From IMG/VR virus record IMGVR_UViG_3300044904_000040, positions 1 through 55,955 of that record: a DNA stretch of 55,955 nucleotides; one strand, 5' to 3'. The notes under the pieces were generated by a model. It had not been told where the DNA came from and searched no databases. It saw only the letters and a list, made by a program, of their open reading frames with translations. The position numbers were made by a program, and so were the translations under genes. Positions 3,266 through 28,167 of the stretch are shown here, piece by piece. Origin of the DNA: a virus. The first letter of the stretch is position 1. Every line of letters begins with the position of its first letter.

Positions 3266-5133
3266 GGTGCGCTCGCTGGGATCAGATGCCAGGGCTGAGT
3301 GGCTACCGCGGCGATCGGGTTGGTGGAGGACCAGACTTCAGTGGTGGCCGGCACCGGCGCCTGGGTGCCGCCCTGGCCCGCATAGACCTGCAGGATTTGA
3401 GTCTGCGTGTCGATCGAGATGCCAAGCCACACCCAATCCGACCAACCGGAGAAATTGAAGGTGGCTTGGACGATCGCGGTGGCGCTGGCGTCGTAGGCGT
3501 TGACGATGATCTGCGGCGTGTGGGTCAGGTCGTTGAACATTTCGATCTGCAGGCCGCCGTTGGGTGGACCCGCATCGTTCGCCTGATTCGAGAAGATCAG
3601 GCCTGCCTTGCCGGCGACATCTGGCATGTAGAGCCATGTGGTGAACACTGCCGTCGTGAACGTCGCCGGCAGGCCGGTCAAACCCGCCGGGGTGGCCAAT
3701 TCCTGCGCGGGATAGGTCGATAGTTCGACGCCCTTCGGGAAATACGTCGATCCCGACACAAGGAAGCGCGCAAAGCAATTCGAGATATGCCGGCTATATT
3801 CCCCATTCGAGTATGACGCACGTTGATGCCAGCATGGATAGCCCATTTTGGCAGATGTGGTGAGGTCAAGAACCCAAGTTGTATCCGCAGTTGGGAAAGT
3901 AAGAACATAAAAGACGTGTCCTTCTTGCTGATATGCATACGCGATAGCATCGTTCACGACTGTATACTTAGCAAGTTCCTGTTCAATCTCGTGAGTGGAC
4001 TTCCTTACGGGGGAATATCCCTCCGACATGGCGACGAACCGATCGCCGGATGAATTTTGTCCAAGCCACAACAGCACTTGCCCGGTCTTCACCAGGGAGG
4101 CGGGCGCCGCGAGCCCGGACTCGATGAACACGCCCGTCGCACGCTGGAAAGTGAATCCCGCAACGCCGGCGTTCACCCATATCTCGATGTGCGTTTCCTT
4201 CATCAGCCAGAACTCGCGGGCGAGGTCGATGATCCCCACCAGGGCGTCCGGGGTGGCATCGGCTTTCGAGAAGTTCAGGGCTTGCCAGTTGGACAGATCA
4301 TCGAGATCCGACTGATACCACGATGTTGTGTCCGCCACGCCGACAACGCCGAAGCCATCCTGATATGAGGCCATCGACGGGAACCCGGTGAATGGCAACA
4401 GGATCGGGCCAACCTTCGTGCTGGCGCCGAATGTCGGGGTGGTGATGGTGATGCCGGCGCCGCTGCCCGATGTGGTGTTCTGCGTGAACGTCGTAGGCGT
4501 GCCGCTGAACAGGCCCGGTTGCGTGACGCTGAAAGCGGTGGCCACGCCCTCATAGGTGGCAGTGGTGGTGATCCCATTGACCGTGACGGAATAGGTGATG
4601 GTCTGGACAGCGGTGATCGTGATGATCGCCGTCATCGACTGGACGCCGCCCTGCTGTTGGAGGGTTACGGTGTCGCCAACCGCGTAGAGGGTGCCGCCAG
4701 GGTAGGGTGGGGCCGCCGCAGTGGCGATCACGCCGCCGGTGAGGGGCTTGCCGCCGGCGGCCACTAGTTCGGCTGTGGTGAGGTAGCCGGCATATCCATC
4801 GAACACCGCAAGCTGCGTGCCGTTGTCGATCATGGAGACAGGGCCGGTGGACGTGCTGAGATAGCCGAGGAACGTCGCCACCAGGGCCGGGGTGATGGCC
4901 CAAAGCTGCGGGCCTGACACGGCATACATCAACTCGCCCATGACATGCAGGCCGCGCTGTGGCCCTGGGCCGCAAGTCAGAAGGCGATCGAGCCCGGGCG
5001 TCATCAGCAAGTAGCCTGGGGATTTGCCGTCCTTCGACTCGATCACTTCGAGAAAAAGGTTGATCTCCTGCGCATCGGCCGCGTTGGTCGAGCGAGATAC
5101 GCCGAACGCGCCGAGGATGGGGGATTCTGCCAT
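3262..5133 (-). CDS. P22 gp10-like packaged-DNA stabilisation protein, N-terminal part, with inserted domains
   Basis: 623 residues. The start (MAESPILGAFGVSRSTNAAD, EINLFLEV, SPGYLLMTPGL) and the region near WYQSDLDDLSNWQALNF and LVGIIDLAREFWLMKETHIE are typical of gp10-type tail accessory proteins, which plug the portal after packaging. A beta domain with TLYAVGDTVTL sits at roughly residues 130-240. From about residue 495 the protein becomes a LamG/concanavalin-like domain (VFTTWLYMPDVAGKAGLIF, WVWLGISIDTQTQILQVY) instead of the usual gp10 C terminus, which is encoded by the next gene. The ATG overlaps the upstream TAA (TAATG). Confidence 0.8.
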   Translation of the reverse strand: MAESPILGAFGVSRSTNAADAQEINLFLEVIESKDGKSPGYLLMTPGLDRLLTCGPGPQRGLHVMGELMYAVSGPQLWAITPALVATFLGYLSTSTGPVSMIDNGTQLAVFDGYAGYLTTAELVAAGGKPLTGGVIATAAAPPYPGGTLYAVGDTVTLQQQGGVQSMTAIITITAVQTITYSVTVNGITTTATYEGVATAFSVTQPGLFSGTPTTFTQNTTSGSGAGITITTPTFGASTKVGPILLPFTGFPSMASYQDGFGVVGVADTTSWYQSDLDDLSNWQALNFSKADATPDALVGIIDLAREFWLMKETHIEIWVNAGVAGFTFQRATGVFIESGLAAPASLVKTGQVLLWLGQNSSGDRFVAMSEGYSPVRKSTHEIEQELAKYTVVNDAIAYAYQQEGHVFYVLTFPTADTTWVLDLTTSAKMGYPCWHQRASYSNGEYSRHISNCFARFLVSGSTYFPKGVELSTYPAQELATPAGLTGLPATFTTAVFTTWLYMPDVAGKAGLIFSNQANDAGPPNGGLQIEMFNDLTHTPQIIVNAYDASATAIVQATFNFSGWSDWVWLGISIDTQTQILQVYAGQGGTQAPVPATTEVWSSTNPIAAVATQPWHLIPASAP

Positions 5134-5865: not shown

Positions 5866-6585
5866 TCAGAACTCCAAGTTCAGAGGATCGACCGCGGCTG
5901 CAGACTTCCGCTCGGCGGCTTCAGCTTCAGCCGTTGCCGAGATCAGCTTTTCCAAGCTCCACCGGCGATCGACCTTCACGCCCGCCGCCAGGGCGCGTTC
6001 CTCGTAGGACTGGAATAGGGCGTCAACGGAGGTCGGCAACTTCTCGGGCGCAATCATGGGAGGGGGCGCCGATGCCATGGCGAAGGCGAGGTCGCCAACG
6101 GACTTGGTGAGGCCTGCAACCACGGCCTGCATCGCCGCCATGTTCTTGGCCATCGCCTCCATCTGGACGTTGGTGTCGGCCGGCTTGTTGGCATCTATCT
6201 CGGCCAACCGGCGGGCTTCGGCGCGAGCGCGGGACAGTTCCTTGGCGTTCTTCTCGATCGCCGCCCGTTCCTCGTCCTCGTTTTTCACAAGGATTTCGCC
6301 AACGAATTTGGGGAACTCTTGATGGCCGTGGTGGCGCATCGGGTCAGGTGCAGCGTGCGCCTGCACGAAGGCGGCGGGGTTGCTCTTGCCGCCGGGCACG
6401 TAGCCCTGTGCCTCATGGTATTCGCGCTGCTGCTCATTCTGGACCGTCACCGGCGGGAACTTCATCGCAGTGCCGAACGTCGCCGGCGTGCCCTTGCGCG
6501 CATCTTCAGACGTGCCGAGGGTCGCGGGCTGGAAGTTGGGATGCACCATCATCATGGGAAAGTGCTGGAATTGCTGTTCGGTCAT
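5866..6585 (-). CDS. Hypothetical virion-module protein with helical core
   Basis: 239 residues from ATG 6585, behind GGGAGCCG. This ATG overlaps the stop of the upstream small gene (ATGA), which supports it over the longer frame. The middle (about 120-165) is highly charged and helical (NEDEERAAIEKNAKELSRARAEAR), followed by a Met/Ala-rich helix. No known domain is recognised. It lies between capsid-proximal genes and gp4. Confidence 0.7.
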   Translation of the reverse strand: MTEQQFQHFPMMMVHPNFQPATLGTSEDARKGTPATFGTAMKFPPVTVQNEQQREYHEAQGYVPGGKSNPAAFVQAHAAPDPMRHHGHQEFPKFVGEILVKNEDEERAAIEKNAKELSRARAEARRLAEIDANKPADTNVQMEAMAKNMAAMQAVVAGLTKSVGDLAFAMASAPPPMIAPEKLPTSVDALFQSYEERALAAGVKVDRRWSLEKLISATAEAEAAERKSAAAVDPLNLEF

Positions 6586-8526: not shown

Positions 8527-9747
8527 TCAGTTTGTGAGGCGGACGCCAAGCTCGGGATAGAACGTCGCGGTGCCGTAAAGCAAATCGATACGGCAAGGGA
8601 GGACGTCGTTGTTGATGTCATACTGCCGCACGATGCGCAGCGACATGCCCTTCCACATCTGCCGGGCGGCGAAATCCACGCCCTGCGGAAGTTCCATCGG
8701 CACCATCACCAGACCGAAGCAATCCCGCACAAACGCGATGTTCTGCGCATAGCTGGTGCTGGCGGCGCCGCGGATCGTCAACGCTGCGCCGTTCGCCGGC
8801 GATGCGCTCACGGTCTGATAGGCGCCGGACACGGTGATGGCCGGGCTGATACCGATCGTCGAGTTGCCGCTGCCATCGCTGGATGCGGTGGCAGTCACGG
8901 TGAAGTTCTGCAGCGAGCCGGTGCTGGTCAGGTTCATCGGGTTGACGGCGAACACGCCCTGGATCGTGAACACGTCGCCCACGTTCAAGAGCCCGGCAAT
9001 GCCGGTCGCCCAACCGTTCGTCACCAGCGTCGAGCCGGTCTGGCCGGCGCCGTTGACGGAGCCAACGCCCGTGGTCAGGCCGGTGCCAGCGGTGAACGTG
9101 CCGCCGAACGCGCCTGTGGTCTGGCTCTGGATGTTCTGGTCCAGATAGATTTCGAAGTTGGCGAGGGAGGCGAGATAGCCCTTGAAGGCCGGCTCGGCCA
9201 CGCTCTTGACGTAGACGCCGGACGACAGCGCGTTGGCGATGGACCAGTTGGCGGCCGGGTTGAGGATCAGCACGCGGCCATCCTGGGGCACAGCGCCTTC
9301 ATCCATCCGCTGCCCGACCTGGGCGATGAATGAGAAGGCATTCGGCACCACGCCGGGCGTCCCAACCTGATTGTAGACCTGCTGGAAGTTGGTCAGCACG
9401 TCGAAGTCCACCTGATTGGCCAGCTTGGCGGCGGCCGGCTTCAGGTAGCGATCGGAAAATTCCTCGATTACCAGGGTCAGATCGCTGGTGCTGAACTGGA
9501 AATCGACATGCTTCTGGTTGGAAATGGTGATGGCCGTCGATGGCTCGGTCACATTCTGAATGGACAAGCCCGGGCCGCTGGTGACGGTGAATTTGTTCGG
9601 CTTGCGAACGGTGATCGTGTTGCCGATCTTGTTGAACTGGTTCTCGAACTGGCGGTTGACCTTGCCGGCGGCCACCAAGTTGTTCTCAAGGATCGCCAGG
9701 GTTTCTTTGGCGATGATGCTGGGGGTAAGCAGGCTGTTCGTTGACAT
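8527..9747 (-). CDS. Major capsid (coat) protein, P22 gp5-like
   Basis: 406 residues. The N-terminal part (MSTNSLLTPSIIAKETLAIL, NTITVRKPNKFTV) and the segment LPQGVDFAARQMWKGMSLRIVRQYDI match what is expected of P22 gp5-type coats with the HK97 fold. The protein contains a Gly/Thr-rich beta insertion (about residues 215-330), in line with the inserted domain found in P22-type coats. It follows portal and scaffold in the standard order. The ~150-base leader upstream contains GC hairpins and no gene. Confidence 0.9.
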   Translation of the reverse strand: MSTNSLLTPSIIAKETLAILENNLVAAGKVNRQFENQFNKIGNTITVRKPNKFTVTSGPGLSIQNVTEPSTAITISNQKHVDFQFSTSDLTLVIEEFSDRYLKPAAAKLANQVDFDVLTNFQQVYNQVGTPGVVPNAFSFIAQVGQRMDEGAVPQDGRVLILNPAANWSIANALSSGVYVKSVAEPAFKGYLASLANFEIYLDQNIQSQTTGAFGGTFTAGTGLTTGVGSVNGAGQTGSTLVTNGWATGIAGLLNVGDVFTIQGVFAVNPMNLTSTGSLQNFTVTATASSDGSGNSTIGISPAITVSGAYQTVSASPANGAALTIRGAASTSYAQNIAFVRDCFGLVMVPMELPQGVDFAARQMWKGMSLRIVRQYDINNDVLPCRIDLLYGTATFYPELGVRLTN

Positions 9748-9896: not shown

Positions 9897-10958
9897 TTAT
9901 GCCCGGCTTCCCCACATTGGCGCGCGGGCGGCAGACTCTCGCTGCCGAACGCGGATGGCGACTTCCTCCATGCTTTCTTCCCGATTTGCGTCCGTAGCCG
10001 GTTCGCGCGGGCCTTGCAGTGGAGTAATTGGTGCTGGTGCATTTGATACTCTCACCGGCGGTTCACTGGCAAGTTTTGCCGAAATGGCGCCGACTTCGAA
10101 CATTTGCATTGCAGCGGACAGCTTTGATATCCGCGTGGCCTCATCGATATTCTTGCCGAGGAAATACGCGATATCCGGGCCGTTTGGTGCGGCGATCATC
10201 GCCTGCGCGGTGGGGTAGTCGATCGGCAGGCTGTCGGCTTCTGCGACGGCCTCATAATCCGAGTATTTGAGGATCGCGTCCGCCTTCTTCACTTCGTAGC
10301 TGGCCTTCATCTGCTCAAGCTGCGCGGTCTGCGATGCCTCGCGCGCCTCCTGAAGCGCAGCTTCGCGGGCCTCCGTTGCCTTTTGCACTGCCTGGGACTC
10401 GGCCTTGGTGCGCGCAACCTCCACCGCATCCGTCGCCCAAGCATCGAGCGCGGCATCGTAGGCGTCCGGGTCATTGAAGTCCGCACGCTTCGGTCGTGGC
10501 GTTTCGATCGGCTCGGGTGTGGGCTTCGGCGCCAGGGCTTTCAAGGATGCCAGGGCTTCATCCAGCCGGGTCTGCGCCGCGGTCGATGCAGCAATCGCCG
10601 CCTCGCGGGCAGTGTCGGCCTCGCGGCGCTTGTTCCGCTCCTTGGTGATCTCGGCCTTCATCCAAGGCGGGGTCTTGTCGGACTTCAGGATCGCATCGTC
10701 AGCGTTCTCGTCCGCCACCGGCTCAACAGGGGCAGTGGTTGGTTCCGGCGCGTCGGCCGGCTTCGGTGCGTCGATCTGGTCAACGCCGCTGCGAGCCCGC
10801 ACCAGGGCGGCTTGGTCGGCCGCGCTCATCTCGCCAACGCTGCCCGCAGCTTGGTCCTTCGGGTCATTGGAGGCATTGACCGGCGGTGCCGGCGGCATTG
10901 CGCCAAGCGGATCGGATCCGGTGGCGTTCAAGGCTGGTCCAGTGGTTTGCTCAGACAT
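9897..10958 (-). CDS. Scaffolding protein
   Basis: 353 residues behind AGGAGTGA. Acidic, Pro/Ala-rich N terminus, then a long charged helical segment (KAEITKERNKRREADTAREAAIA, about 100-150; EAREAALQEAREASQTAQLEQM, about 190-215) and a basic C terminus (IRVRQRESAARAPMWGSRA). This is the usual make-up of P22 gp8-like scaffolds, whose basic C terminus binds coat protein. The place between portal and coat genes supports it. Confidence 0.85.
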   Translation of the reverse strand: MSEQTTGPALNATGSDPLGAMPPAPPVNASNDPKDQAAGSVGEMSAADQAALVRARSGVDQIDAPKPADAPEPTTAPVEPVADENADDAILKSDKTPPWMKAEITKERNKRREADTAREAAIAASTAAQTRLDEALASLKALAPKPTPEPIETPRPKRADFNDPDAYDAALDAWATDAVEVARTKAESQAVQKATEAREAALQEAREASQTAQLEQMKASYEVKKADAILKYSDYEAVAEADSLPIDYPTAQAMIAAPNGPDIAYFLGKNIDEATRISKLSAAMQMFEVGAISAKLASEPPVRVSNAPAPITPLQGPREPATDANREESMEEVAIRVRQRESAARAPMWGSRA

Positions 10959-10967
10959 GACTCACTC

Positions 10968-13900
10968 CTATCTCGGCGGCATCGGTGCTTGAGGCGGTGC
11001 TGCCGGCTGCATCCCGGCGGACGGTGCCGGTCCCGTAGGCGTAGGCTGCTGCTGCGTCATCGGCGGGACAATCTGCGCCGACTGGTGTAGGGCGGCCAAG
11101 GCCTGCCCTGCCGCATCTTCGACCTTTCCGCTGGAAAGCTGTTTCACCAGCCCCGTCACGTTCTGGCCAAGCTCTTGGATCTGCGAGCCGACGTGCGCGT
11201 TGAAGGAAGCCTCGGCCTTCTGCACCACGCCAAGCACTTTGGCCTCGAAGTCCAGATGGATCTTTTCCAGATCCACGGCGCGATCGGCGCCCTTGTCCTT
11301 CAGCGCCATCGCCGCGGCCTGCAGCTTCATTGTCAGGTCTTTGATCTGGCCGTCCATCGACTGCAGCAAGGCGGCAACCTGCGGCGTGACATCCTTCATG
11401 TCCGGCGCCAACAGGTGAGGCGGCAGGGTCTTCGCCAAGCGGGCGGCGATCTGCTCGGCTTCCGGCCAATCCTGATTCTTCGCAATCAGGTCGGCAACCA
11501 CGGCCGCGGTCTGCGGCAGGGCGCGGACGAACGCCATCATGCTCTCGGCGGCTTCGATGCGCTTGGTGGCGAAGCTCGGCCCGATTGTGACCGTCACCCC
11601 GTAGCGGCCCATCGTGGGGTTGAAAATCTTCTGCATCTTGCCGGTCTTCGGGTCCGGCTTCTGGTCGAAGGCCTTTGGTGCGTGGGGATCCAGCATCACC
11701 TGTTCCTCGCCGCCGTCTTCGCGGAGGATCGTGATCATCCGGCGCGTGTCGATCACCTTCGGGATCAGGTCGATGAACACGTCGCCCTGGTGCTTCAGCG
11801 TGCGGCACAGGTTGTCCATGTAGTGAAAGCTACCCATGTCGCTGGTCTGGCGAAGCTCACGCAGCGCACGGCCGCTCTCGTCCGTCACGCGCTCCTGCTT
11901 GGTGCTGTCGAAGCGGATGCCCGTGGTGGCCATCATGTCCTGCGCGGCGCTCTGCTTCAGGCTCTCCCATCCGGCGCTCGGCATCGACGGCGGCTGGCGC
12001 TGCGGCGCCGGCAAGGGCTGGCCCGCAAGAGTCCGCGGCTGATATTCGAGATAGGCGTAGGACTTCGTGTTCGCGTTGTTCCACTTGTCCTCGTGGCCTT
12101 CGAACTGGCCCTCGGCGCCGACGAACGGTGCTTTCGGTGCCAGGGCGATCGTCTCCATCTCCATGGTGTTGTGCGTCGGGATCATCGAATACCCGGCGAG
12201 AAACAAGTGGGAGTCATTCCCGACCTTGATGCACTTCACCGGGACTGATGGCACGGCAGTGACAGAGACGATGCCGAATCTCTTGGTGCGCCGCCAGTGG
12301 GTCGGGCCACCGCCGGTCTGGCGTGCCTTCTTTCGAGACAGACCAAACACGCTATCGTCTGGGCCGCATGAGAAGAAGAACCGATCTACTGAAATGCATT
12401 GACATAGATTTCCGCCAGGAAAGGCGGCAAGGCGCGGGGCAATCTTCTGAATTGCGACCTTGATACCAAGCCCCCGCAACAATTCTGAGAACCCTTCGCT
12501 CAATGCAGGGATCGTCGTCGTAAAAGCGCACTGGCGAAATTTCGTCACATTGCCATCGGAATCCATCAGGCCACGCAGAAGGTCGAGCCGTTGCTGCCGT
12601 GATGCACGCTGGTAGATGGCCGGGATGTGCTTGTTTCGGATGAGCCCAAGGCGCGCGAAGTGCTTCCGAATGCCGAACGCCGACAACTTCGAAGCCTTCT
12701 CGCCATACTTCCGCGCCTCGCCAACATGAAGGCCACGGGCGATCAGGATGTCTCGAACTTCCTCAACGTCCATGTCGCCTGGAGTCAACTCGATATCGCG
12801 GCTGGTGCCGTCTCCAAGCCACCAACCGAGGAAGTAAGGATCAATCGGCAGATCGGCATCAGGCATGTCGAGTGGCTTGGGCGAGAGGATGAATTGAATT
12901 TTCGGGTTCAATTCAGCAGTCGGAACAGTCTTGGTTTTCCAATCTCGGCGTCCTTCCTTCATGTTTGTCCGCTCTTCGACCGTCCACAGATGGTCTTTGT
13001 CAGCTACGATGGAACTGCCGTCATCGAACTCCACGCGGAAGCAATCTCGGTGCAGCAGCACCGGACTGGTTCCAACCACGTCCACAACAGCGCCAGTTTC
13101 ATCGAACACCCGATCTCCGGCGGCAATGTCGAGCATAGTTGTCCAACCACTTGGGGTCGGGATTGGCGTGTCGAGCGCGAGCGGGGAGGAATAGTTGTAG
13201 GAACGCTGTGCATCCTTGGCATTGCGGATGATGCCGGACAGCTTCAGTTTGCCCTCGATGTCTATTTCATTGCCGACAACGCGGAATATCGGAATCCATT
13301 TGCCAGCCCACTCGCGGCGCTCAAGGATCTCCACGGCGGTCAGCTTATACCACATGACCGTTGGGACTTCGGCATCGCGCTCCTTCAGCACCTTCAGCTT
13401 GCCGGACTTGATCGCCGCGTCAACTTCATCGGAAAGGTCTTCGCGGAACCCGACATGGCCATTCGAAAGCTGAACAAGTTCTTTGGTCTTGTAAGTAATC
13501 AGGAAGTATTCAGCGACACGGACGTTCTTTTCGTCAATCCAGTTCTTGTATGTGTCGCCGGCCGCGCTCTCCGTCCATGACATTGGATCCGCATCAGGAT
13601 AGGTTTCTTCGAACTCGCCCCGCGGGATCAACTCGGTGATGAAAGCAAACCGCTTGTCGGAAGTGTCGGGCTCCTGGGAGGTCGGGTCCACATAGACGGA
13701 AAAGGTGTTGCGGATCCGCTTGATCACGATGGTCTGGTCCATCGAGTCCGGCGACTCATATTCCGTCACCATCCGCCAATAGCCCCAACCGATCGATGCG
13801 GCGCTGTCGAAGGCCGTGTCATAGGCCACATCGGCGTGGCTCTCGCGTTCGAAATAGCGGATCAGGCCGCGATACATCTTCGCGACTTCGGGATCTGACT

Positions 13901-14318
13901 TGTCGCCAACCGGGGACACATTGATCGCCGGCCGGTTGTTCCGCTGCTCATTCACCACCTGATTGACGAAAGTGGGGATCTTGTTGATCGTCATGCAGGG
14001 GCGGAAGTCGTTGTTCCGCTGTGCTGCGATCGTTGCTGGCCATTGGTCGCCGGCCTTGAACTTTAGGTCTTCCAGCCCGGCGGCGCGGTTCTCGCTCTCA
14101 GCGGACGCCGCGGTTTCGAAGTGCTTGCGGGCTTTTGCCAGGATCTTCTGGTCCTCCTGCTCATCCTTCTCTTGGCCGAGCATGATATCCTTGGCGTCAT
14201 CCTTGCCGCCCTTTCCCCCTTTGTCCTTCACCATGATCGGGACGCGGTTCATGCCCGCTGTCACCTTCGGCAGTTTCAATCTGCCGTTGTCCTTCGGCGC
14301 GCGGGGGTCTTGGACCAT
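10968..14318 (-). CDS. Portal protein (P22 gp1-like) interrupted by an intein
   Basis: 1116 residues encoded; removal of the intein (379-717) leaves a 777-residue portal. The N-extein carries portal features (FKAGDQWP, RPCMTINKIPTFVNQVVNEQR, FDSAASIGWGYWRM). The junction region IIRNAKDAQRSYNYSS joins TMEMETIALAPKAPFVGAEG, restoring the conserved YNY-x3-x-E-x-E...LAPKAPF segment with the expected spacing. The C-terminal part is helical and ends in a Gln/Pro-rich tail. A portal is needed in 12 copies in every virion, so efficient splicing must occur. SD-like GGAAGG precedes ATG 14318. Confidence 0.9.
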   Translation of the reverse strand: MVQDPRAPKDNGRLKLPKVTAGMNRVPIMVKDKGGKGGKDDAKDIMLGQEKDEQEDQKILAKARKHFETAASAESENRAAGLEDLKFKAGDQWPATIAAQRNNDFRPCMTINKIPTFVNQVVNEQRNNRPAINVSPVGDKSDPEVAKMYRGLIRYFERESHADVAYDTAFDSAASIGWGYWRMVTEYESPDSMDQTIVIKRIRNTFSVYVDPTSQEPDTSDKRFAFITELIPRGEFEETYPDADPMSWTESAAGDTYKNWIDEKNVRVAEYFLITYKTKELVQLSNGHVGFREDLSDEVDAAIKSGKLKVLKERDAEVPTVMWYKLTAVEILERREWAGKWIPIFRVVGNEIDIEGKLKLSGIIRNAKDAQRSYNYSSPLALDTPIPTPSGWTTMLDIAAGDRVFDETGAVVDVVGTSPVLLHRDCFRVEFDDGSSIVADKDHLWTVEERTNMKEGRRDWKTKTVPTAELNPKIQFILSPKPLDMPDADLPIDPYFLGWWLGDGTSRDIELTPGDMDVEEVRDILIARGLHVGEARKYGEKASKLSAFGIRKHFARLGLIRNKHIPAIYQRASRQQRLDLLRGLMDSDGNVTKFRQCAFTTTIPALSEGFSELLRGLGIKVAIQKIAPRLAAFPGGNLCQCISVDRFFFSCGPDDSVFGLSRKKARQTGGGPTHWRRTKRFGIVSVTAVPSVPVKCIKVGNDSHLFLAGYSMIPTHNTMEMETIALAPKAPFVGAEGQFEGHEDKWNNANTKSYAYLEYQPRTLAGQPLPAPQRQPPSMPSAGWESLKQSAAQDMMATTGIRFDSTKQERVTDESGRALRELRQTSDMGSFHYMDNLCRTLKHQGDVFIDLIPKVIDTRRMITILREDGGEEQVMLDPHAPKAFDQKPDPKTGKMQKIFNPTMGRYGVTVTIGPSFATKRIEAAESMMAFVRALPQTAAVVADLIAKNQDWPEAEQIAARLAKTLPPHLLAPDMKDVTPQVAALLQSMDGQIKDLTMKLQAAAMALKDKGADRAVDLEKIHLDFEAKVLGVVQKAEASFNAHVGSQIQELGQNVTGLVKQLSSGKVEDAAGQALAALHQSAQIVPPMTQQQPTPTGPAPSAGMQPAAPPQAPMPPR
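12168..13184 (-). mobile_element. Class 3 (WCT) intein with LAGLIDADG endonuclease, inside portal
   Basis: 339 residues, portal positions 379-717. It starts PLALDTPIPTPSGWTTMLDI, so position 1 is Pro, not Cys or Ser, and it ends SMIPTHN before Thr 718. Trp 445 (block B, KDHLWTV), Cys 696 (block F, VKCIKVG) and Thr 715 (block G, THN) make the Trp-Cys-Thr set that defines class 3 inteins, in which the internal Cys starts splicing. Two LAGLIDADG-type motifs (YFLGWWLGDGT near 496-505; LLRGLMDSDGN near 580-590) show a homing endonuclease domain. Boundaries come from comparison with the expected uninterrupted portal sequence. Confidence 0.88.
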
Positions 14319-15104: not shown

Positions 15105-16694
15105 CTATGTTCCCAACCAACCAAGTTGCCCGCCACTCGGGCCGCCGCTGCGGGAATTTTCACGGGGGCGCGGACGTCGCGCACGCACCGGCTCGGCAAA
15201 GGTCAGCGCAACCGCATCCCATTCGTCCGGTGATCGGATCCCGCGCGCAACCATCTTCTCCTTCGGCTCAAGCAAAAGCTGCTGCTTCAGGTCATAGGTG
15301 AACGACGGGCCGCACGCATCCGACTGCAGGCTATCCAGATCGGGAATGTCGGCGCCACCAACCTGTGTCAGCCAGTCCCGCGACCGCGACCACATCTCAG
15401 CCCGCCGGTTCGCCGCGCCCGGCACCTTCGTCCCGTCGTCCAAGATGATCACCGGATCCTGCGGCGAGCCGCCGAAGTTCACGCCAACCACGATCGACTC
15501 ATAGGGCTCGCCCCATGAGTGCAGAATGTCGAACGTGCCAGCACCAACGCCGCCGAGGTCGATGAACACCCGGTCGGGGTTGTCGGCGTCGATCACGCGC
15601 TTGATCCAGTTGGCGCCCTCGATCGTTCCCATCTTCAGGTTGCTCTCAACCTTCTCAACCTTGCGCCCGCGCCGCCATGCCAGGGAGAAGCGATCCTTGC
15701 CCATGCGCGCCGGGTCAGCGCCGATCACCAGCGGGCCGAACGCCTCGCACGTCGCCTTGCGCGCCCAAACCACGCTCTCAGGCGTGATGAAGCTCTCATG
15801 GCCGGAAAACTGGAACATCTCCTGCGCCGTCGCCGGATACTCCTGGCGGAAAAGATTCGGGTCTTTCAACTCGGCAACCTTCGCACGCCGCCAAACCATC
15901 TGTCGCATGGTCAGCCGGTGCATCCCGGCATATTCCAGTTCCTCGGTGTCCAACACGAAATCCAGCGGCACATCCCGCGAATATTCCGGCGTCATGAACC
16001 AGGGAATGAAAATGTTGATGTAATCGCCCTCGCCAGCTTCAGCCTGCATCCACCGCTCATGGAACTCACCGCCAACGCCGGCGCCTGTCGATTCCAAGAT
16101 GATCTCCGTGTCAGGCAGATCAGGAACAGCCTGCACAACGCCGCCAAAGTGCGCCGCCGCGTTCGCCCAGAACGCTACCTCGGAACCATGCAACAACTGG
16201 ATCGTCTTCGAGCGGCCGATTGCCTTCGTGCCAGCCGTTCCGACCGCATACCCGCTGTCGAGCTTGTCGAAGAATAATTCCTTGGCGTTCGCCTTCGCCG
16301 TCGATACCCGCATCGCGTTGTGCTTGTGAAACCGCTCAACCATCCCGAACAGGTTGTCTGTCGCCGGCTGCTCATGGGTCAGGATGAACGTGTTCACCCC
16401 GCGGCGCATCGAAGTCCGATGATAAAATCGGCCGCCGATATAGGTGCTGCCGCCAGACTGCCGGCCCTTGCCCAAAATAGCGCGAACCTTGCCAGTCCGC
16501 GCCTTTTGTTCCTCAAGACGGGTGTGCAAATACACCTGGGCCAAGTTGAAATCGAACGGAACAATCGTTCCCGCTTTAGTCTTGATCTTCAAAAACTGCG
16601 CAGCAAACAACGGGTAGTTATCCAGAAGTCGCTTCATGGCCGCATCATGACGCGCCCTCGTTTCTTCGTCCGCCGTGTAATACGACGCACTCAC
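15105..16694 (-). CDS. terL: Terminase large subunit
   Basis: 529 residues. ATPase: Walker A variant [12 protein letters not shown] at 74-85, Walker B-like HGSEVAFW at 169-176, coupling motif ILESTG near 199-204. Nuclease: [12 protein letters not shown] with Asp 327 and FIDLGG with Asp 379, an RNase H-like fold. The basic C-terminal tail ([10 protein letters not shown]) is usual. The enzyme cuts the concatemer and pumps DNA through the portal. Its ATG overlaps the stop of the 16691-17032 gene. Confidence 0.92.
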
Positions 16695-25865: not shown

Positions 25866-26773
25866 CGGCGGGCTTCCTCGAAAATCGATCCTTCGATCGT
25901 GTTGAAATCCGCCATCAGATCGGCGGGTTCCTCGTCCATCAATCCCATCGCGCCCAGCTTTTTGGCGAGATCGGTTTGATACGCTGATTTTTGCGGCTGG
26001 TGTAATTTCGTTTGCCGGGTGTCCTGCCTGGGTTCGAAAACTCCCTGCCAGCCGGCGGCGGTGGATGCGTCCAGTGCTGCGGCGACGTCGAGCCCGCGGT
26101 CATGGAAGCCCTCCAATTTCCGAATTAGGATTTTCGCTGCGATCGGCGTGAGGGGCTTACGCGATTGGCGCCTGCCTTCGACAAACTCGGACCATGAACG
26201 CAGGGGCATCCAATTGGGGAGCACAGCGACCAACGCCACGGGGGCTGGCTTCGGCGTTTTGGGGGAGGGGGGTTCTTTCTTACTTTCTTTCTTTTTTGAT
26301 TCTGAAAGGGATTCAGAAAGGGAGTCTTCCTTCTCTTTCTTCTCTATCTCTTTATGTAGTTGTAGAGAGCATTGCGTTCGCATATGCGGATCGTATGCGT
26401 TCGCATCAGGCTTGTCATTGATATCATTGGGAACAGGGGTATTTTTCTTGTTCCAACGTGAGCCCGCGGATCTCGATGCTTCCTCACATTTTTTTTGCGT
26501 TTTTGCCCGCTCTTTGTCGAGCCGACGCTGGATCAGGCCTTCAGCGATGGCGGAAAAAAAAGGCAAAACAACCCCTGAGATTTTCGTTTTCCAGCGTCCG
26601 ATTGTGCAACGGGTGATCTGCGCCAGGGACTCGTCATCGGCCGGCAGGAAGCCGCGGCGCCACTGGTGCATCAGCAGCAGCAAATAGGCGCCATGCTGTT
26701 CCGTGGTCAGGTGCGCGGTGTCTCCCAAATAATCTCCGATATAAAGTGGCATCCAATTCGAGATCGCGCTCAT
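25862..26773 (-). CDS. DUF1376-type phage replication protein
   Basis: 303 residues. The N terminus MSAISNWMPLYIGDYLGDTA, LTTEQHGAYLLLLMHQW and LAQITRCTIGRW are characteristic of DUF1376 proteins, which lie beside phage helicases and probably act in origin binding or helicase loading. The centre is a very charged Ser/Lys/Glu linker (about 140-175) encoded by a strikingly T/C-rich tract (minus-strand A/G) near 26270-26350. The C-terminal part (LRSWSEFVEGRRQSRKPLT, LEGFHDRGLDVAAALDAST) is the domain common at the end of such proteins. ATGA-coupled to the helicase gene. Confidence 0.85.
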   Translation of the reverse strand: MSAISNWMPLYIGDYLGDTAHLTTEQHGAYLLLLMHQWRRGFLPADDESLAQITRCTIGRWKTKISGVVLPFFSAIAEGLIQRRLDKERAKTQKKCEEASRSAGSRWNKKNTPVPNDINDKPDANAYDPHMRTQCSLQLHKEIEKKEKEDSLSESLSESKKKESKKEPPSPKTPKPAPVALVAVLPNWMPLRSWSEFVEGRRQSRKPLTPIAAKILIRKLEGFHDRGLDVAAALDASTAAGWQGVFEPRQDTRQTKLHQPQKSAYQTDLAKKLGAMGLMDEEPADLMADFNTIEGSIFEEARR

Positions 26774-28167
26774 CGGGTTTCGTCCTTCGGATCATAAAAG
26801 TTGGCGGTGGGGCCGTGGAATTTGAGCGCGATCGAAGTGGTTTCCCCTTCGCGCACCTTGGCTGCAATCAATTCGGCGGTCCCCTTTGTCGCCTCTTTGA
26901 TTTTGTGGAAGTCGTTGACGCGAGCCGCGTGCTTTTCCTCGCTCTCACCTTCGCGTCGATCTGGTGGGGATTTTGGCAGGAAAGTTTCTGCCCGGTGGAC
27001 AAATAACACCATATCCGCGTCTTCCTCGATCGCACCGGCCTGCCGCAGATCGCTCATGGTCGGCCGCTTGTCGTCGCGTGCTTCGAGTGCGCGCGATAGT
27101 TGAGATAACAGGATCACGGGACAGTTGAGGGTCTTGGCCATCTTTTTGACGGTGTGCGCAATGCCGGCGGTGGCCGAGGTCGAGCCGTTTCGGAGGTCGT
27201 TCGCGTCGGGTTCCGCAATCTGCAAATGGTCGATCATGACAAGCCGCAGGCCATGCTTTTTTTGAGCGCGGCGTGCCATCTGCATCATCTCGGCTACGGT
27301 TGCCCTGCCGCCGTCTTCGATGGTCAGGGGGAGGTCCAGCAGGGCTTTGCGGGCCGCCAGCAACGCTTCGATATCCTCGGCGTGTTCGCCCTTCTTCATT
27401 TTCCAGATCGGCACGCCCGATAGAACGGACAGAGCCCGGCGGCCGAGTGCCGCGGCCGTCATTTCCATCTCGATCGCCAACACGCCATTGCCGGCTTGCG
27501 CCTGGGTGATGGCCCATTTCCATACCAGCGCGCTTTTTCCCGAACCGGGTCGGCCGCCAACGACAATCATGTCGCCATTTTCGAGCCCGCCAAGCGCGGC
27601 ATCGACGCTGGGCATCCCGGTCTTGATTCCGAGGCCGGCTTGGCCGCTGGCGACAGCATCGGCTTGCGCCAGCGCGGAATCGACGGCTTCGTTGAGGGTC
27701 TTCGGGCCGCCAATGCCGGTGCCGACGGCGCCTATCGAAACTTCCTCGATCGCGTCCTGGGCGGCCTTGAGCAAGCCGGCAATATCCTGGCCGCCGTGGA
27801 CGGCCGCGGCGAGGGAGGCGGAAAGCGTGATCAGTTCTCGCCGTGTCCATGCGTCGATCACTGCGTCGGCATACGGGCGGGCCATCATCCAGCCCGGGGA
27901 CGCCACCATCAGCTTGGCCAGATAGTCCATGCCGCCTACCGCATCGAGAAGGCCAACGCTGCCGAGTATGGTCTTCAGCGTGATCGCGTCGGGAACCGTG
28001 CCGGCGGTAAAGCTGCGCTGGATGGCGTCATAGACGATGCTGTTGATCGGATCCGCGAAGTGCTTGCCTTGCAGGTGATCTTCGATTTCCCGATAGGCCT
28101 TCGGGCTTCCCAAAAGGGCGCCAAGAAGTCCCTGTTCGGCCAATATGTTGGTCAGGTTGTCGCTCAT
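26770..28167 (-). CDS. dnaB: DnaB-like replicative helicase
   Basis: 465 residues. N-terminal DnaB domain (EQGLLGALLGSPKAYREIED), then the RecA-like core: Walker A GRPGSGKS at 205-212, Walker B LVMID at 309-313 with DHLQ, SQLSR at 355-359, and RPTMSDLRQAGAIEEDADMV with the arginine-finger region. This is the full domain order of a DnaB-family hexameric helicase, so the phage probably drives its own theta or rolling replication with host polymerase. Confidence 0.93.
   Translation of the reverse strand: MSDNLTNILAEQGLLGALLGSPKAYREIEDHLQGKHFADPINSIVYDAIQRSFTAGTVPDAITLKTILGSVGLLDAVGGMDYLAKLMVASPGWMMARPYADAVIDAWTRRELITLSASLAAAVHGGQDIAGLLKAAQDAIEEVSIGAVGTGIGGPKTLNEAVDSALAQADAVASGQAGLGIKTGMPSVDAALGGLENGDMIVVGGRPGSGKSALVWKWAITQAQAGNGVLAIEMEMTAAALGRRALSVLSGVPIWKMKKGEHAEDIEALLAARKALLDLPLTIEDGGRATVAEMMQMARRAQKKHGLRLVMIDHLQIAEPDANDLRNGSTSATAGIAHTVKKMAKTLNCPVILLSQLSRALEARDDKRPTMSDLRQAGAIEEDADMVLFVHRAETFLPKSPPDRREGESEEKHAARVNDFHKIKEATKGTAELIAAKVREGETTSIALKFHGPTANFYDPKDETR

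Follow-up and report, generated by a model that had tools for sequence, protein, structure and literature searches.

The portal gene of the window (the whole 55,955-nucleotide stretch of viral DNA analysed here) carries an insert of 339 codons, and this locus raises the question of what the insert is and whether it serves the phage or mainly itself. An earlier note had read it as a class 3 intein with a LAGLIDADG endonuclease in a P22-type portal, and had suggested that its splicing might time or limit procapsid formation. We consider it very probable that the insert is a mobile, full-length class 3 intein at a fixed site in the portal stem, which splices rapidly and constitutively and persists as a selfish homing parasite.

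The host gene (10968..14318, minus strand; 1116 codons plus stop) is a single open frame encoding a 1116-residue precursor composed of the exteins and the intein. Its identity as a P22-type portal was confirmed by a Pfam match to PF16510 (P22_portal; E 1.1e-161), which was split into two pieces around the insert and covered both exteins, and by a match to PHROG 156 (portal; E 6e-116). The adjoining genes, all on the minus strand, encode an intein-free terminase large subunit upstream (15105..16694; PHROG 2, E 6e-29), a scaffolding protein downstream (9897..10958; PHROG 8865) and a P22-type coat protein (8527..9747; PF11651, E 8e-53), which is the usual packaging-gene order of terminase, portal, scaffold and coat. 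The portal ORF was the only match to an intein-family profile in the window; a DnaB-type replicative helicase at 26770-28167 has no intein, although helicases of this type often harbour class 3 inteins. A megablast search of the 10 kb around the portal gene against phage records gave no match, suggesting that there is no cultured close relative. Two further intein-bearing portals lie on contigs of about the size of the window (L066, 56,715 bases; L150, 55,257 bases), hinting at a group of ~55-kb P22-like phages.

The boundaries of the insert could be fixed by comparison with close relatives, which were collected by scanning viral contigs with the C-extein. Two of these, L037 and L038, have no intein; they are 86-87% identical to the window in the N-extein and 90% identical in the C-extein, and their exteins abut at the junction with a gap of 0 residues. 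A third contig, L039 (the same as L001 and L065), contains an intein at the same place that is 86% identical to that of the window, while its nucleotide identity to L037 and L038 around the portal is 98.7-99.2%. Apart from the 1017-nt insert, L039 equals L037 and L038 over ~368 nt on the upstream side and ~297 nt on the downstream side of the junction; the one mismatch listed, at position 1, arises where the alignment is shifted by one base between TCG/ACG and the intein ends. This is a clean presence/absence polymorphism at one site among phages that are practically of a single kind, and it sets the boundaries at YNYSS / P...HN / TMEMETIALAPK. The N-extein (residues 1-378, ending KDAQRSYNYSS; 13185..14318, minus strand) aligns without gaps to its intein-free counterparts, the intein (residues 379-717, PLALDTPIPTP...SMIPTHN; 12168..13184, minus strand) is 339 aa long, and the C-extein (399 aa, first residue Thr+1; 10971..12167, minus strand) follows, so that the coordinates and boundaries given in the earlier note proved exact. 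Its expectation that removal would restore a portal of normal length also held, since the predicted spliced product of 777 aa, deduced from the intact residues and the class 3 pathway, equals the length of the L037 portal from the equivalent start. Uninterrupted portals containing the inserted region would have spoken against an intein, but none of 110 uninterrupted portal ORF matches had an insert at the junction, and the whole of it was missing from them. Among the SNPs that distinguish L039 from L038 around the site there was no block of window-like alleles that would mark a co-conversion tract; these SNPs therefore fit either direction, gain or precise loss, and precise loss by recombination with an intein-free phage would leave the same polymorphism as gain. 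Two other length differences were seen near these portals: L037 has ~455 nt extra directly upstream of the portal (~3402-3866), mostly open frame, relative to L038, L039 and the window, and L039 has ~322 nt extra downstream of the portal (~6205-6541), mostly open in one reading frame.

The residues that define class 3 inteins are Trp at B:12, Cys at F:4 and Thr at G:5; these inteins need no nucleophile at position 1 and are followed by Ser or Thr at +1 (PMC5222942). The N-terminal splicing (HINT) part of the insert (intein residues 1-85; 12930..13184, minus strand) contains Pro1, which is nucleophile-free at a junction set by the empty relatives, together with Cys48, His65 and Trp67 (B:12). 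The C-terminal splicing part (residues 301-339; 12168..12284, minus strand) contains Cys318 (F:4), Thr337 (G:5) and the terminal His338-Asn339, after which comes Thr+1. Trp67, Cys318 and Thr337 are precisely the precursor residues Trp445, Cys696 and Thr715 on which the class 3 reading had been based, and this reading was upheld by the complete residue set and by the HINT fold of the structural model described below. The Trp-Cys-Thr set, His65, the His-Asn end and Asp208 (the block E aspartate) were invariant in 89 relatives (15 portal inteins and 74 others), and position 1 was non-nucleophilic in 14 of the 15 portal inteins. The portal intein of L224 has Cys at position 1 plus the full Trp-Cys-Thr set, and could for that reason in principle use class 1 or class 3 chemistry. 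By sequence, the best PDB match of the window intein was the class 3 DnaB intein of Msm (6bs8; E 2e-28), in an alignment spanning intein residues 2-75.

Scanning the window with PF14890 (Intein_splicing) produced no match, although the same model matched in control genomes; this miss appears to be a false negative that reflects a limit of the model, which apparently does not cover this branch. NCBIfam gave no useful match. A group I or group II intron was also considered as the identity of the insert; an Rfam scan of the window, which detected no intron or other RNA, argues against it together with the open reading frame.

The middle of the insert, a linker plus LAGLIDADG homing endonuclease (intein residues ~86-300; 12285..12929, minus strand), scored above the cut-off of Pfam model PF14528 and contains two motifs, YFLGWWLGDG and LLRGLMDSDG, both of which retain their acidic residue (D125 and D208, the catalytic acids), in agreement with the endonuclease proposed earlier. 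An AlphaFold2 model of the intein built from 22 relatives (mean pLDDT 92.1, pTM 0.89) is a confident one, and in it the architecture is predicted to be a HINT domain with a two-motif LAGLIDADG endonuclease. Foldseek comparison of this model recovered PI-SceI (E 5e-20, TMq 0.77), I-DmoI and the class 3 DnaB inteins (TMt 0.85-0.88; 0.88 for 6bs8).

How widely this intein family occupies the portal site was assessed with a DNA pattern for the C-terminal junction, consisting of Thr-His-Asn-Thr followed by a conserved portal motif and thus confined to Thr+1. All 19 contigs that matched the pattern had a window-related intein beside portal sequence. With 15 portal inteins (window included) analysed in full and a partial one in L240, at least 16 portal lineages share the site, all in environmental phages. 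Only two of ~105 portal loci fetched by portal sequence had the intein (L039 and L150), which suggests that it is uncommon, although selection of these loci by similarity makes the rate a rough one. Identity was higher between inteins than between portal cores in 88 of 105 pairs (53% versus 41% for window and L235; 59% versus 39% for L235 and L239), while in close pairs the intein diverged as fast as the portal or faster, as in L228 and L238 (57% versus 73%). This incongruence points to movement of the intein between distant portals. A tree of 46 rows grouped the 15 portal inteins with three non-portal inteins (L069, L072 and L077) in one supported set (98/88); a single origin of the portal inteins apart from these three may hold, as it was not rejected (AU p 0.39). 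The L069/L070 intein, located at ORF residues 197-537, is 50% identical to that of the window, and it is L069 that groups with the portal inteins. Its exteins had no Pfam match and are terminase-like by motif alone (YES/TAKG); the corresponding motif in the window terminase, ILESTGAG, is uninterrupted. A jump between packaging genes is thus possible for this intein, as judged from sequence.

In an alignment with P22 gp1, the junction corresponds to the boundary between M334 and S335 of this portal, whose stem comprises residues 320-343 (PMC12005531), and by this alignment it is located in the middle of the stem helix that lines the DNA channel. A precursor model built from the fetched loci, used solely for the helices beside the insert, placed helices at 363-377 and 719-726 flanking it, with low confidence (pLDDT 66). 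The 30 residues around the junction were within the 0.8% most conserved portal windows, and the +1 residue was Thr or Ser in 34 of 34 aligned portals, which suits a class 3 intein. As the insert interrupts the mid-stem helix, we infer that subunits would be unable to build the wall of the channel before splicing.

These observations are consistent with a model in which one 1116-aa precursor would be translated from the open frame. Cys318 (F:4) would attack the Ser378-Pro379 bond, giving the block F branched intermediate, after which the N-extein would be transferred to Thr+1; Asn339 would then cyclise and the exteins would be ligated as YNYSS-TMEMETIALAPK in the 777-aa portal. Splicing would probably occur soon after translation, with only spliced subunits entering the working dodecamer. 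During mixed infections, the freed endonuclease would cut empty portal sites and repair by recombination would copy the intein in, a homing step suggested by the polymorphism, the conservation of the endonuclease and the incongruence between intein and exteins, all of which are as predicted for a homing element. The proposed role of splicing in timing or limiting the formation of procapsids received no direct support, and the near-identical phages without the intein argue against it, since they make the intein look dispensable. It is most likely that splicing is fast and constitutive and that the element acts as a homing parasite, not as a timer of assembly.

There is a slim chance that this portal-stem intein instead splices slowly or under control, with a redox-sensitive Cys48-Cys318 disulfide as one conceivable switch, which would delay or prevent ring formation during stress or in the early phase of infection. 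Cys48 aligns with the cysteine of Msm DnaBi1 that pairs with the catalytic Cys in a disulfide induced by ROS (PMC6195587), it is present in 14 of the 15 portal inteins, and the insertion site would leave the precursor inactive for assembly; if such redox gating took place, conditions in the infected cell would decide whether the DNA-packaging ring is assembled. However, Cys48 occurs just as often outside the portal set (66 of 74 class 3 inteins), so that we regard the redox gate as a lead only, and its conservation may be purely catalytic, as DnaBi1 Cys48 mutants fail to splice (PMC6195587). No portal-specific feature was found, and the near-identical phages manage without the intein.

Returning to the preferred reading of an active, constitutively splicing homing intein, we estimated selection from one pair, the window and L039. 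The dN/dS ratio was 0.12 for the intein, 0.125 for its endonuclease region and 0.097 for its N-terminal splicing part, and 0.124 and 0.158 for the exteins. Purifying selection on both parts of the intein in this pair suggests that splicing and endonuclease activities both appear to be maintained. The dS of the intein (0.65) was close to that of the N-extein (0.67), so intein and portal have diverged together in this pair. The same values bear on the idea, improbable in our judgment, that the element is degenerate or only cleaves, no longer ligating the exteins and leaving the portal gene broken. Decayed inteins do exist, such as the class 3 intein pseudogene Arth_1007 of Arthrobacter (PMC3196547), but here every catalytic residue is preserved, nothing breaks the reading frame, and purifying selection acts as strongly on the intein as on the exteins. 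That the insert is a lineage-specific portal domain kept in the virion can be virtually discounted, for although it keeps the portal reading frame and, between L039 and the window, has diverged in step with the portal, it has a HINT plus LAGLIDADG fold and homology to terminase and helicase inteins, sits inside the stem helix, and is cleanly absent from near-identical phages.

Among known systems, PI-SceI, the VMA1 intein, has the same architecture of HINT domain and two-motif LAGLIDADG endonuclease (TMq 0.77), but it is 17% identical to the window intein, uses class 1 chemistry and sits in a yeast gene. The mycobacterial DnaB class 3 inteins (Msm DnaB-1/DnaBi1 and MchDnaB-1; PDB 6bs8 and 6rix) share with the window intein the Trp-Cys-Thr set, the HINT fold, the 21-residue spacing from Cys F:4 to Asn G:7, and Cys48; in the experimentally proven Msm DnaB-1, His65 and Trp67 even have identical numbers (PMC5222942). 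They are mini-inteins of 139-145 aa in a replicative helicase and lack an endonuclease, whereas the window intein is full length, carries LAGLIDADG motifs and occupies a structural portal. The TerL intein of phiCbK (class 3-like, 341 aa, Pro1 to Asn, Ser+1; PMC3556154) resembles it in Pro1, the His-Asn end and length, but differs in host protein and site; the window intein also matches PHROG terminase profiles through inteins contained in them. The view that inteins are less usual in portals was only partly right, given the at least 16 lineages at this site and the inteins already listed for the portals (PORT) of cluster C1 mycobacteriophages (PMC5050341). The cluster C1 intein of Colt gp80 is likewise a LAGLIDADG intein in a phage portal, but it begins with Cys (class 1 type, as we read it) and not Pro, and Colt gp80 has a weak PF14890 match, which the window intein does not; it has no P22_portal match, and by sequence this portal appears unrelated to the P22-type portal of the window. 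We found no inteins in P22-type portals in the open-access literature, so that, although the type of element is well known, its site in the P22-type portal stem and the class 3 family found there were not found described in open-access text. The class 3 intein map gains a recurrent site in the stem helix that lines the channel of P22-type portals; apart from portal inteins, most of those recovered in our intein scans interrupt P-loop-like motifs in terminases and helicases. Near-isogenic phages that differ in having the intein offer a natural system for measuring its cost in an assembly protein of twelve copies, and the precisely defined empty site would be a ready-made endonuclease substrate. 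Since the Pfam intein model misses this branch, annotation pipelines relying on PF14890 will miss window-type inteins, and such genes are probably annotated as oversized portals.
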